A stretch of DNA of 64,000 bases, taken from contig JAPPED010000027.1 in NCBI GenBank assembly GCA_028824295.1, positions 62,001 to 126,000 of the forward strand. The letters are read 5' to 3'. The translations under genes and the position numbers were made by a program. Of this stretch, positions 15,962-23,825 are shown in pieces. The notes under the pieces were generated by a model. That model worked only from the letters and a program-made list of their open reading frames with translations, searched no databases and had not been told where the DNA came from. Position 1 is the stretch's first letter. Every line of letters begins with the position of its first letter. Origin of the DNA: Rhodospirillales bacterium. GTDB lineage: Bacteria; Pseudomonadota; Alphaproteobacteria; TMED109.

Positions 15962-19617
<3,656 letters not shown>

Positions 19618-19628
19618 TCGGGTCCTGG

Positions 19629-22043
19629 TCAGACCCTTATCGGCATGATGACGTGCAGCCTGCCGACCTCTCCGGTGTCGCGGATCACCGCCGGCTGGCC
19701 GGAGGCCTGGAACTCGATGATCATCTCGTCGCCCTGCGCGGTCTGGCAAAACTCCATGAGGTATTCGGACCGAAACCCGATCACGACCGGGTCGCCCCGG
19801 AACGAGCCCTCGAAGACCTCCCGCCCCGCGCCGTGCTGGTGGTCGCCAGCGCTCGCGGTGAGACTCTCCTCGCTCAGTTCGAACCGGATCGCCCGGCTCT
19901 TCTTGTCGGCCACGAGGGCCAACCGTTCGAGGCCCCGTTGAAGGGCCCCGCAGTTGATCTGCAGCGTGCTGTTGCACGTCGTCGGAATCACGCGCTGATA
20001 GTCGGGGAACTTGCTCTCGTGCAGGCGGGTGACGACCACGACATCCGCGACCGCGAGCCGCATCCAGCCGTTCCCCATGCCCACGCCCACGGCGCCGTCC
20101 GAGTCCGCCAGCAGCCGCTCGATCTGCTCGACCGCCTTGCGCGGCAACGTCACGCCCTCCGCCAGCGTCTCCGCCCCCGGCGGGCACTGGCATGCGGCCT
20201 GCGACAGGCGATGGCCATCGGTGGCGCCGGCCCGGAGGAGATGCTGCCCGCCGTCTTCCACGGTGTGCAGGAAGATGCCGTTCAGGTGCATGCGGGCCGG
20301 ATCTCCCGACATCGAGATCCGGCACCAGCTCAGGAGCTGCCGCAGGTCCGAAACGGGCAGTTCGAACACCTGCTGCCACTCCAGATCGTGCAGCGTCGGA
20401 AAATCGTCGGTCGGCAGCGACGGCAGAATGAACTTGCTCTGCCCGGCATCAACGACCAGCCATGCGCCGTCGCCATCCGAATCGCTGCCCGGGGCCAGGG
20501 AGACGCGCACGTCCACGCCCTCCGGCAGCTTGCCGACGACACTGTAGAAAAGGGGTGCCTCGACGGTGGCCGCGCCGGCGCTCTCGACCTGGGCAGCCAA
20601 GCGTTCGGATTCGTACAGCACCTGATTGTCGCCGGCGTCGAACACGACGCTGCCCGCCTCTGCCCGGATCAGCACGTGCGAGAGGATCGGGCGGGTCCCG
20701 ACCCGCTCGACCACGCCGTGCATGTGCGCCAGGGGCGCCAGCAGGGCGCTTCGCCCCTGGGTGAACCGCAGGCCGGCGTCGGATCCGGCGCCGACTTCGC
20801 GCAGGAGCGCTGCATGTCCCTGCGCAGACACGTTGAGCGGCATGACCACGTGCACCGTCTCGTCGCTGGTGGCGCCTCGGATGACCGCCGCGTGCTTGGG
20901 GCTGTCGAACTCCAGGACGAGTTCCGAGTCGGGGATCACGCGGCAGCAGGCCGTCACGTAGTCGCCGTTGAAGCCGATGGCCAGCGCCTTGCCTTCGTAC
21001 TTGACGTTGATCAGCTCGCGGCCGAGGCCGCTGGCCGGATTGCCCGCGCTCAGGATGAGCGTGTCGCCGCCCAACTGAAAGGTGATCCCGCGGCTCTTGG
21101 GATCGGTCACGGCGCTCAGCCGGTCGATGGCCTGCAGCAGGGACTGCCGGTTGACCTGCAGGCGGTTTTCGAGCGACTGGGGGATCACGCGCCGGTAGTC
21201 GGGGAAGCCCCCCTGGCTCAGACGCGCGGTCATGGACACCGAGCCGACGTCCAGTCGCAGCAGGTTGTCGCCCGACCACAGTGCCACGTCGCCGTCCGCA
21301 TTGCGCAGGAGGCCGTCCACCTGTTCGACCGCCTTCTTGGGCAGCGTGATCCCGTCCTTGATCGCGCCGCCGCCCGCCTCCAGCACGTGCGCCGAGCATG
21401 CGAGCCGATGTCCGTCGGTGGCCGCCGCCCGCAGCAGCGTCTTCCCGTCCTCGTCGGCGGTATGCATGAAGATCCCGTTGAGGTGGAGCCGCGCATCGTC
21501 GTCCGACATCGAGACCCGGCAGGAATCGATCAGCCGCCGGAGCTCCGCGGCGGGCAACTGCAGCGGCGCATCCTCGGGCGGCTCGGCGAACTTCTGGAAG
21601 TCGCCCGGGGCCAGTGAGGGCAGGGCAAACGTGCTCCCGCCTGCTTCGATGATCACCCGCTTTTCGGGTTCTCCGCCCAAGGAATCCGGCAGCTCGGTAA
21701 CGGCCCCGTCGGGTTCCGAGCCGGCCGCTTCGGCGACCGGCGTCATCCGCACCTGGATCGCCGTGTTGCGCGGAATCCGGTTCACCAGGTCGTGCAGGAG
21801 ATGCGCCTCGACGGTGGCCTCGCCCTCCTCCTCGACCGTGCCCGTCAGCCGTTCGGATTCGTAGAGGACCTCGTCATCGCAGGCGTCGAATGCGATCGTG
21901 CCGTTCTCCCCGTCCGCGCCGCGCTGCGCCCGAATCAACGTGTGGGCGAGGATCGGCGCGCGCGTGCGGTCGCGGCGTTCCGCCACCCCGTACACGTGCT
22001 TCAGAGGCGCCAGCAGATCCTTTTGATCAAGCGTAAATTTCAT
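19629..22043 (-). CDS. dnaN: Tandem-fused DNA polymerase III beta sliding clamp (double DnaN)
   Basis: One uninterrupted 804-residue frame holds two complete beta-clamp units; normal DnaN has about 370-390 residues. Unit 1 is residues 1-405 (MKFTLDQ to VVMPLNV). A linker of about 18 residues follows, then unit 2 is 424-804 (LRFTQGR to VIMPIRV). Each unit has all three clamp domains and its own client-binding cleft. Unit 1 has ATDGHRL at 208-214, FPDYRRVIP at 280-288 and MPLN at 401-404. Unit 2 has ATDGHRL at 607-613, FPDYQRVIP at 679-687 and MPIR at 800-803. The offset is a constant 399. Hand comparison of 203-288 with 602-687 gives 42 identities in 86 without gaps, so the duplication is old. 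Unit 1 replaces the usual C-terminal arginine with Asn404. The product should fold as a single-chain six-domain ring around DNA. The frame can be read from a GTG at 22088, but family N-termini favour the ATG at 22043. Confidence 0.95.
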   Translation of the reverse strand: MKFTLDQKDLLAPLKHVYGVAERRDRTRAPILAHTLIRAQRGADGENGTIAFDACDDEVLYESERLTGTVEEEGEATVEAHLLHDLVNRIPRNTAIQVRMTPVAEAAGSEPDGAVTELPDSLGGEPEKRVIIEAGGSTFALPSLAPGDFQKFAEPPEDAPLQLPAAELRRLIDSCRVSMSDDDARLHLNGIFMHTADEDGKTLLRAAATDGHRLACSAHVLEAGGGAIKDGITLPKKAVEQVDGLLRNADGDVALWSGDNLLRLDVGSVSMTARLSQGGFPDYRRVIPQSLENRLQVNRQSLLQAIDRLSAVTDPKSRGITFQLGGDTLILSAGNPASGLGRELINVKYEGKALAIGFNGDYVTACCRVIPDSELVLEFDSPKHAAVIRGATSDETVHVVMPLNVSAQGHAALLREVGAGSDAGLRFTQGRSALLAPLAHMHGVVERVGTRPILSHVLIRAEAGSVVFDAGDNQVLYESERLAAQVESAGAATVEAPLFYSVVGKLPEGVDVRVSLAPGSDSDGDGAWLVVDAGQSKFILPSLPTDDFPTLHDLEWQQVFELPVSDLRQLLSWCRISMSGDPARMHLNGIFLHTVEDGGQHLLRAGATDGHRLSQAACQCPPGAETLAEGVTLPRKAVEQIERLLADSDGAVGVGMGNGWMRLAVADVVVVTRLHESKFPDYQRVIPTTCNSTLQINCGALQRGLERLALVADKKSRAIRFELSEESLTASAGDHQHGAGREVFEGSFRGDPVVIGFRSEYLMEFCQTAQGDEMIIEFQASGQPAVIRDTGEVGRLHVIMPIRV

Positions 22044-22153: not shown

Positions 22154-23467
22154 TCAGTCTAGAATCCAGTGCTTCAGCTTCTCGACGTCCTCCACCAGCA
22201 CGGGCTCGTTCGCGAGCCGTTCGTCGACCCGCCGCGTGGAATGCACCACAGTGGAATGGTCGCGGTTGAACCGGCCGCCGATGTCCGGAAGGCTCATCGG
22301 CGTGAGCTGCTTGCAGAGCCACATCGCCACCTGGCGCGGGCCCACGATGCGGCGCTCGCGGCGGGCCGAGACAAGGTCCCCCCGGCGCAGGCCGTAGTAC
22401 TCCGTGACCGCCTTCTGGATGGCCTCCACCGTCACCCGGCGCTGGTTGGCGCGCAGCAAGTCGGGGAGCGCGTCGCGCACCAGATCGAGCGTCACCGGGC
22501 GCTTCTCGTACTCCGCGTGCGCAACGACGCGCGCCAGTGCCCCGGTCAGCTCGCGGATGTCATTCGTGATCTTCGTGGCCAGGAACTCGAGCGCCGCGTC
22601 GGGAACACTGACCTCGTCGTAGCGGCTGCGGTGCCGCTGCAGGATGCTGAGGCGCAGCTCGTAGGTGGTCGAGCGCAGCTCGGCCAGGAGACCGCCGCCG
22701 AGCCGTGAACGCAGCCGCCGGTCGACGTCCTCCATGTCCACCGGCGCCCGGTCGCCCGAGACGACGATCTGCTTCCCCTCGTTCGAGAGCGCATCGAAGG
22801 TGTGGAAGAACTCCTCCTGGGTCTGGACCCGGCTGGCCAGGAACTGCACGTCGTCGACCATGAAGACATCGACGGTCCGGAAGCGCCGCTTGAACGCGTC
22901 GGTGTCCTTCGCGCGGAGCGCCGCCACGAACTCCGACGTGAACTTCTCGGAGGACAAATAGGCGACGTTGCGTTTCCCGCGCCCGATGATCTCCCAGGCG
23001 ATCGCGTGCATCAGATGCGTCTTGCCGAGGCCGACGCCCCCGGAGAAGAACAGGAGGTTCCGGTTGCCGCTGGTCCGCCCCTCGGCCACCCGCCGGGCGG
23101 CGGCGTAGGCGACCTGGTTGCTCGCGCCGACCACGAAGGAGTCGAACGTCCGCTGCGGATCGAGCACGCTGCCGACATGCGAGGGCGCTGCCGACGGTGG
23201 CGCCTCCCCTGGCGCGGCCGTCCCGTCCTCCTTGACGACGATCTCGACGCGCCGCACCGACGGGTCCGCCGCCGAGCAGCTGGACAGGATCTGCCCGAGA
23301 TACTGGCTCCGCACCCACTGCCGATGGAATTCCGACGGTGCCGCGAGGACCAGCGGGTCGATTCCCGGACCTACCGGTTGCAGCGGCAACAGCCAGTTTT
23401 CGAAGGCCGCCGGACTGATCTCGTCACGGAGTCGGGATTGCGCCGCATGCCAGCAGTGTCCGTCCAT
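22154..23467 (-). CDS. dnaA: Chromosomal replication initiator DnaA
   Basis: 437 residues. Domain I is MDGHCWHAAQSRLRDEIS through SPAAFENWLLPL. A short alanine/proline-rich domain II follows. The AAA+ domain has Walker A GGVGLGKTHLMHA and Walker B VFMVDDVQFL. Domain IV ends with the DnaA-box-binding signature GGRFNRDHSTVVHS. It opens oriC and regulates replication genes. The ATG at 23467 is preceded by GGGAGGAGCG; an upstream in-frame start has no such site. A 110-base gap separates it from dnaN on the same strand. Confidence 0.97.
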   Translation of the reverse strand: MDGHCWHAAQSRLRDEISPAAFENWLLPLQPVGPGIDPLVLAAPSEFHRQWVRSQYLGQILSSCSAADPSVRRVEIVVKEDGTAAPGEAPPSAAPSHVGSVLDPQRTFDSFVVGASNQVAYAAARRVAEGRTSGNRNLLFFSGGVGLGKTHLMHAIAWEIIGRGKRNVAYLSSEKFTSEFVAALRAKDTDAFKRRFRTVDVFMVDDVQFLASRVQTQEEFFHTFDALSNEGKQIVVSGDRAPVDMEDVDRRLRSRLGGGLLAELRSTTYELRLSILQRHRSRYDEVSVPDAALEFLATKITNDIRELTGALARVVAHAEYEKRPVTLDLVRDALPDLLRANQRRVTVEAIQKAVTEYYGLRRGDLVSARRERRIVGPRQVAMWLCKQLTPMSLPDIGGRFNRDHSTVVHSTRRVDERLANEPVLVEDVEKLKHWILD

Positions 23468-23825
23468 CCGGCGCTCCTCCCTTCCGGTCCTGGCACCAAT
23501 TGCCAAGGCCGCACCCAACCCGGCAGGAGCGCCGACTAAGCCCACAAAAACCTATGCGAAACCGTCTGTTAATAGACTTCTGGGGAAGCGCCTTGCTCCT
23601 GCAACGCTTGGCCAGAATAGGACCGGGCCGAGACCTCGCACAAGCGGGGCATTTCAGCAACCTGACCCATTTCTGTCACCGAAACGCAAATTCTTTGTCA
23701 AATCTGGACGATGCCGGAAGAAATAGATTGCTCGCCAAGAAAACGTCGATCAGGGTCCTGTGTTCGTCAAATAAGCGATTCGTTGGGTCCTATAGCAAAA
23801 CGGTTGTTTCAGGCCTCCCGGGGGC

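Follow-up and report, generated by a model that had tools for sequence, protein, structure and literature searches.

We identified a fused dnaN gene in which two complete β-clamp units are encoded by one open reading frame of 804 amino acids. The gene lies in a 64,000-nucleotide stretch of the genome of a Rhodospirillales bacterium, which is referred to below as the window. The fusion as such is confirmed. Its product is very probably a single-chain clamp that forms a closed six-domain ring, in which the linker between the units serves as a third interdomain connector, one of the two interfaces is tethered, and the other acts as the gate. When the whole genome (3.02 Mb, 97.86% complete, 0.28% contamination) was searched with profiles, PF02768 matched nowhere but at the two places in the fused gene, which is the sole DnaN found in this genome.

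Architecture of the fused dnaN gene

The Pfam profiles PF00712, PF02767, and PF02768 were each found as two stretches in the 804-residue chain, and the NCBIfam profile TIGR00663 (dnaN) likewise matched in two stretches, with 395 bits compared to a cut-off of 138. Each unit thus carries in sequence all three clamp domains that define the DnaN family, and the units are 41.5% identical to each other. The canonical β clamp, by contrast, is a homodimer with one unit per chain. The gene order in the window, dnaA-dnaN-recF-gyrB, is that of E. coli; recF and gyrB were named from sequence and gene order. The features are compiled in Table 1.

Unit 1 ends with MPLNV at residue 405 (MPMRL in E. coli DnaN), and unit 2 starts with L425. 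A preliminary description of this DNA had placed the linker at residues 404-424 of the 804-residue frame (NVSAQGHAALLREVGAGSDAG) and had estimated it at about 18 residues. Its view of the linker as the connection between the last strand of unit 1 and the first strand of unit 2 holds; however, in the alignment N404 and V405 are the counterparts of the C-terminal R365-L366 in E. coli DnaN and hence part of unit 1. This leaves a strict linker of 19 residues, 406-424, so that the earlier length and interval were off by one to four.

Table 1 Features of the fused dnaN locus. Positions refer to the window, those preceded by C27 to the contig.
Feature	Position	Strand	Basis
Fused dnaN, 804 aa, two complete β-clamp units	19632..22043	minus	Open frame and Pfam/NCBIfam profiles
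Stop codon of fused dnaN	19629-19631	minus	
Unit 1, residues 1-405, domains I, II, III	20829..22043	minus	Pfam and E. coli alignment
Linker, residues 406-424, SAQGHAALLREVGAGSDAG, 19 residues	20772..20828	minus	
Unit 2, residues 425-804, domains I, II, III	19632..20771	minus	Pfam and E. coli alignment
PF02768 (domain III) of unit 1, last strand entering the linker	20835..21194 (C27:82835-83194)	minus	
PF02768 (domain III) of unit 2, predicted to meet domain I of unit 1 across the openable interface	19635..19994 (C27:81635-81994)	minus	
Codon 425, CTG (Leu) in the window, probable fossil start	20769..20771	minus	
Rim loop of unit 1, residues 102-127	21663-21740	minus	
dnaA open frame, upstream neighbour	22154..23545	minus	PF00308 at C27:84682-85164
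gyrB, beyond recF, rate control	15962..18466	minus	Sequence and gene order

Occurrence of the fusion

Six further genomes of this genus of uncultured bacteria were available, and in five of them the fusion is present, with two PF02768 matches in a single frame of 830 or 837 amino acids. The sixth, G005, is without a match to the fused protein, and its best DnaA-domain match reaches only 2.4e-6, compared to about 1e-56 or better-ranked in the other six genomes. Since neither a clamp match nor a strong dnaA match was present, the origin region (dnaA-dnaN) is probably missing from this assembly. In a collection with one genome per species we found seven loci, all of them fused and 88-98% identical to the window; five are those of the five genus genomes, while L033 and L035 are additional. 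Altogether, seven distinct fused sequences are available, including that of the window. L033 and L035 (98% and 88% identical to the window) stem from metagenome-assembled genomes labelled Thermoanaerobaculia and Vicinamibacteria (Acidobacteriota), and the other five fused-dnaN contigs from such genomes labelled Alphaproteobacteria or Rhodospirillales. The Acidobacteriota labels probably reflect mislabelled or mixed bins.

In other genera of the family, 20 of 21 genomes have one match each, in frames of 371-410 amino acids, and G020 has none. Outside the genus, the fusion was not seen in samples of 289 genomes of the class and 249 of the phylum (judged for all but G429 of the phylum sample); the two samples overlap with each other and with the genus and family survey. 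A clamp match was present in 272 genomes of the class sample and missing from 17, G005 included. Seven genomes of this sample have at least two matches, and two lie in a frame with room for two units only in G000 and G003, which belong to this genus. The clamp matches of G029, G077, G078, and G201 are located on separate contigs or at separate places, and both matches of G059 fall inside one frame of 372 amino acids. The phylum sample yielded a match in 247 genomes and two matches in six, of which only G000 is known to be fused; for four of the others, the frame around the best match is no longer than 453 amino acids. Long frames with a single match only were seen in G093 (873 amino acids), G511 (754), G481 (680), and G258 (642). 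G078 also harbors, besides a stronger clamp match, two equal-scoring weak matches to DnaN domain III in 615-residue frames (G078:C2:1038206 and G078:C2:1793280).

The fused protein further matched 92 records of the phage collection and 222 plasmid records, all with less than 60% identity. In each of the 24 phage and plasmid matches listed (all but 80 and 210 of the records, respectively), the two matching pieces together lie on 1.0-1.2 kb of DNA; these 24 were rejected as fusions, because a clamp of ordinary length matches both halves of the query.

Predicted ring geometry and interfaces

A full-length AlphaFold prediction on a seven-row alignment gave a pLDDT of 48.6 and a pTM of 0.31 and was not used, seven near-identical sequences being too few rows for a model of the whole chain. 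We therefore rely on a partial model of residues 1-553, which covers four of the six domains (unit 1, the linker, and domain I of unit 2) and for which 72 single clamps, taken from the 80 loci found on viral contigs, served as additional alignment rows. This model has a pLDDT of 87.4 and a pTM of 0.84. Because unit 1 makes up 405 of the 553 residues (73%) and could by itself give a pTM of about 0.73, the higher value implies, in our reading of this summary score, that domain I of unit 2 is placed confidently across the linker. The confidence of AlphaFold may also reflect memory of clamp rings. Compared to Caulobacter 6izo_A, the modelled unit 1 has a Z-score of 34.3 and an rmsd of 1.9 over 369 residues. 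The 50 matches listed in VIA-align are single β chains aligned over residues 1-405, and the 50 listed in Foldseek are all β clamps. Fold comparison of the model thus confirms unit 1 as a β clamp and is silent on the geometry of the linker joint. Entry 3K4X, which we take to be the single-chain PCNA, is not among the PDB fold matches listed.

In the model, the linker is partly helical (helix 407-416), with block pLDDT values of 74 and 67 at residues 401-420. From the last strand of unit 1 (396-400) to the first strand of unit 2 (426-430) there is a gap of 25 residues, whereas the strand gaps at the two natural connectors between the domains of unit 1 measure 17 and 18 residues. As the three clamp domains share a single topology and the subunits join head-to-tail (PMC11139829), the linker joint would need about the same reach as these connectors. 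The linker looks long enough to span it, in agreement with the preliminary description, and 11-residue engineered linkers suffice in single-chain PCNA (PMC2824762).

We propose that the chain would fold head-to-tail into a single closed six-domain ring, with the 19-residue linker acting as the third interdomain connector from domain III of unit 1 to domain I of unit 2. This interface would be permanently tethered, and the gate would consequently lie between domain III of unit 2 and domain I of unit 1. Both ring closure and opening solely at this gate are what we infer from the data at hand. Cryo-EM of the E. coli clamp loader showed that only one interface is opened, that the subunit supplying domain III to this interface moves, and that domain I of the other subunit is without significant density there (PMC11044049). 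The earlier proposal that the fusion would leave the loader only one interface to open calls for a correction: there would be no reduction from two openings to one, since the E. coli loader already opens a single interface. What the fusion would do is to fix which interface can open and to end the equivalence of the two units. Because of the behavior of the domain III donor and of the opposite domain I in E. coli, unit 2 would be the moved subunit, and domain I of unit 1, with its long rim loop, the mobile domain. Going by the structures of clamp-delta complexes, the loader subunit delta would sit on unit 2.

F106 and E304 of the interface are conserved in both units. Most of the interface ion pairs of E. 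coli are missing from both units, and they are also variable in single-unit relatives. Position 272 is Ala in unit 1, Leu in unit 2, and Thr in all 30 single relatives; in E. coli, I272A together with L273A leads to a weaker dimer (PMC11139829). Judged by this one position, the tethered interface looks relaxed and the free interface reinforced. Ala272 would also suit a chain that pairs with a second copy, in domain-swapped or open concatemers, instead of closing on itself. We nevertheless consider such pairing unlikely, as the linker looks long enough for self-closure, tethering should favor the intramolecular interface, and the four-domain model appears to place domain I of unit 2 with confidence.

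Rim loop, binding clefts, and clamp partners

The units of the proposed single-chain ring differ in domain I, which has 158-163 residues in unit 1 compared to 133-135 in unit 2, 125 in E. coli, and 125-128 in the 30 single clamps. Most of the additional length of unit 1 is accounted for by the rim loop, with 34-39 residues in unit 1 (seven sequences), 17-19 in unit 2, 10-11 in the 30 singles, and 9 in E. coli. The rim loop of unit 1 is poorly conserved, has low model confidence, and is located near the predicted gate.

Subsite I of the binding cleft, for which we used the 12 residues listed in a 2024 review (PMC11139829), consists of R152, L155, T172, G174, H175, R176, L177, P242, R246, V247, V360, and M362. 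All 12 are identical to E. coli in both units in three fused sequences (window, L035, and L039). With respect to subsite II (N320, Y323, P363, M364, and R365), Y323 and P363 are kept in both units, while the differences are K344, L364, and N365 in unit 1 and R320, G344, and I364 in unit 2. At position 346, beside the listed residues, unit 1 carries Ala; unit 2 and 30 of 30 singles carry Pro. Subsite II has, by these alignments, drifted differently in the two units. In E. coli β, the cleft was abolished via residues whose equivalents in unit 1 lead directly into the linker (PMC3022782), so that the unit 1 cleft, as aligned here, adjoins the joint.

The genome encodes one delta above the family cut-off and two alpha-type polymerases above theirs. 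QSSLF in the main Pol III alpha looks like a candidate clamp-binding motif, and the side of the clamp partners looks ordinary as far as examined. The second alpha-type DNA polymerase (L049, G000:C33:17816-20749, a 1143-residue frame) is a possible further clamp client and presumably resembles DnaE2.

A more far-reaching reading, which we put forward tentatively and with more doubt than conviction, is that of an obligately asymmetric β clamp. Since the linker would leave the contact of unit 2 domain III with unit 1 domain I as the sole gate, the cleft of unit 2 might be the site of the loader (delta), and unit 1 might be specialized for polymerases or repair partners. The traits of unit 1 that belong to this reading are the long rim loop, a subsite II altered at the exit to the linker, and a possibly relaxed tethered interface (Ala272).

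Linker conservation and origin of the fusion

In a comparison among relatives, as the preliminary description had called for, the linker is 19 residues long in all seven distinct sequences, which share the core HAALL.EVGAG and are free of internal stop codons. Between the window and L039, dN/dS is 0.153 for unit 1, 0.314 for the linker (19 codons only), and 0.124 for unit 2, and both units are under purifying selection. Across comparisons, the dN/dS of the linker (0.19-0.31) is similar to that of the loose rim loop (0.14-0.27). Between the two clades of fused sequences, pN is 0.12-0.17 in the linker, 0.06-0.07 in the units, and 0.17-0.18 in the rim loop, i.e., the letters of the linker change two to three times faster than those of the units. 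Given a pN above that of the units and a dN/dS like that of the rim loop, it is the length and the core of the linker, and not its whole sequence, that appear clearly held. Taken together, the interpretation given in the preliminary description is partly supported.

Four of the seven distinct sequences (L035, L036, L037, and L039) begin unit 2 with an ATG codon, and in the first three of these the linker contains AGGAGGT, which ends 22 nt before this ATG. The clade of the window, with the remaining three sequences, has CTG at this codon and is without AGGAGGT. We regard the ATG and the AGGAGGT as probable fossils of the start of a second dnaN copy. The same two elements would also fit a scenario in which two separate clamp proteins are still made, from an internal start at the old ATG or by cleavage within the linker, and then dimerize, leaving the fusion as a remnant. 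Such a scenario seems quite improbable, and an internal start at unit 2 unlikely, as the distance of 22 nt is too large for an ordinary ribosome site and both units are intact in the clade of the window despite the absence of ATG and AGGAGGT; moreover, linker length is invariant and the frame unbroken in seven of seven sequences. An assembly or binning error, by which adjacent dnaN copies or a frameshift were read as one gene, can practically be dismissed, for although all seven loci derive from metagenome-assembled genomes, the same fusion recurs in six genomes of the genus with equal linker length in seven sequences diverged to 88% identity, no stop, and purifying selection on both units.

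In a tree of 45 rows, units 1 and 2 each form a monophyletic group (100/99) and are sister clades (100/100); the stem of the fused clade amounts to 3.6 changes per column. Where exactly the fused clade attaches is unsure, given the very long branch of E. coli and the unusual make-up of unit 2. The window's GyrB shares 53-61% identity with that of ten genomes of the family and class, whereas unit 2 of the clamp reaches only 31-39% with the same ten; among seventeen single clamps of the family and class, one shares 49-71% identity with the other sixteen. This comparison suggests that the clamp, unlike GyrB, went through a burst of change. The single-chain clamp most likely arose when dnaN was duplicated in tandem on the stem lineage of the genus and the first stop codon was subsequently lost.

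Relation to known clamps and significance

The fused clamp shares domain content, gene order, subsite I, and the fold of unit 1 with DnaN (TIGR00663; E. coli 2POL, Caulobacter 6IZO). Known DnaN clamps are homodimers of one chain of about 370 amino acids, whereas here two diverged units lie in one chain. A natural fused DnaN was not found among the titles, abstract openings, and passages listed from open-licence papers. Duplicated dnaN genes are known as DnaN-1 and DnaN-2 of Bacillus, which share about 40% homology and resemble the present case in the duplication, but are unfused, separate genes (PMC3290774). Other duplicated clamps are likewise encoded by separate genes, and the text of PMC8357120, on duplicated clamps, contains none of the words "fused", "fusion", and "tandem".

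Engineered single-chain PCNA, in which three monomers are connected by two 11-residue linkers, crystallizes closed with DNA; it resembles the fused clamp as a covalently joined ring with one free interface and differs in being man-made, in consisting of three two-domain units, and in having linkers that are disordered in the crystal (PMC2824762). The fused clamp, by comparison, is natural and bacterial and consists of two diverged units. Two non-equivalent clefts per ring are also a feature of the engineered E. coli heterodimers betaC/beta+ and betaC/beta159, with which one cleft appears to be enough for viability (PMC3022782). These heterodimers are non-covalent mixtures of mutants, while in the fused clamp the non-equivalence is encoded by one gene and subsite I is present in both clefts.

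Among the matches listed, a fold search of a viral library gave clamp and PCNA-like proteins and one long protein of HCIV-1 (Haloarcula californiae icosahedral virus 1). VP1 of this virus is a virion protein of 1608 amino acids with two predicted PCNA domains (PMC4958249); it thus has more than one clamp module in a natural chain and differs from the fused clamp in being a structural protein of the virion, not a replicative clamp. The BFVD model of an 804-residue HCIV-1 piece aligns with our model with a TMq of 0.67 and an rmsd of 8.3 over 666 columns, and this TM-score is higher than that of every single clamp among the matches listed (at most 0.63). Judged by its size, the piece is probably the first half of VP1 (L138:3472-8298). 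Against this background of separate duplicates, engineered joined clamps, and viral tandem PCNA domains, we class the fused DnaN as a variant of the β clamp and not as a canonical member.

The symmetric homodimer has been regarded as an invariable trait of bacterial clamps, and the fused dnaN departs from it. The need for both clefts has previously been probed with the engineered heterodimers (PMC3022782). In the fused gene, the two units are genetically separable, so that a mutation of a single cleft or a single interface can be made on one plasmid, and the question of which subunit the loader grips can be addressed in the same way. If a divided labor of the two units held true, heterotrimeric PCNA would have in this clamp a bacterial counterpart encoded by one gene. 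Overall, the finding suggests that an essential ring can be rebuilt through tandem duplication and loss of a stop codon.
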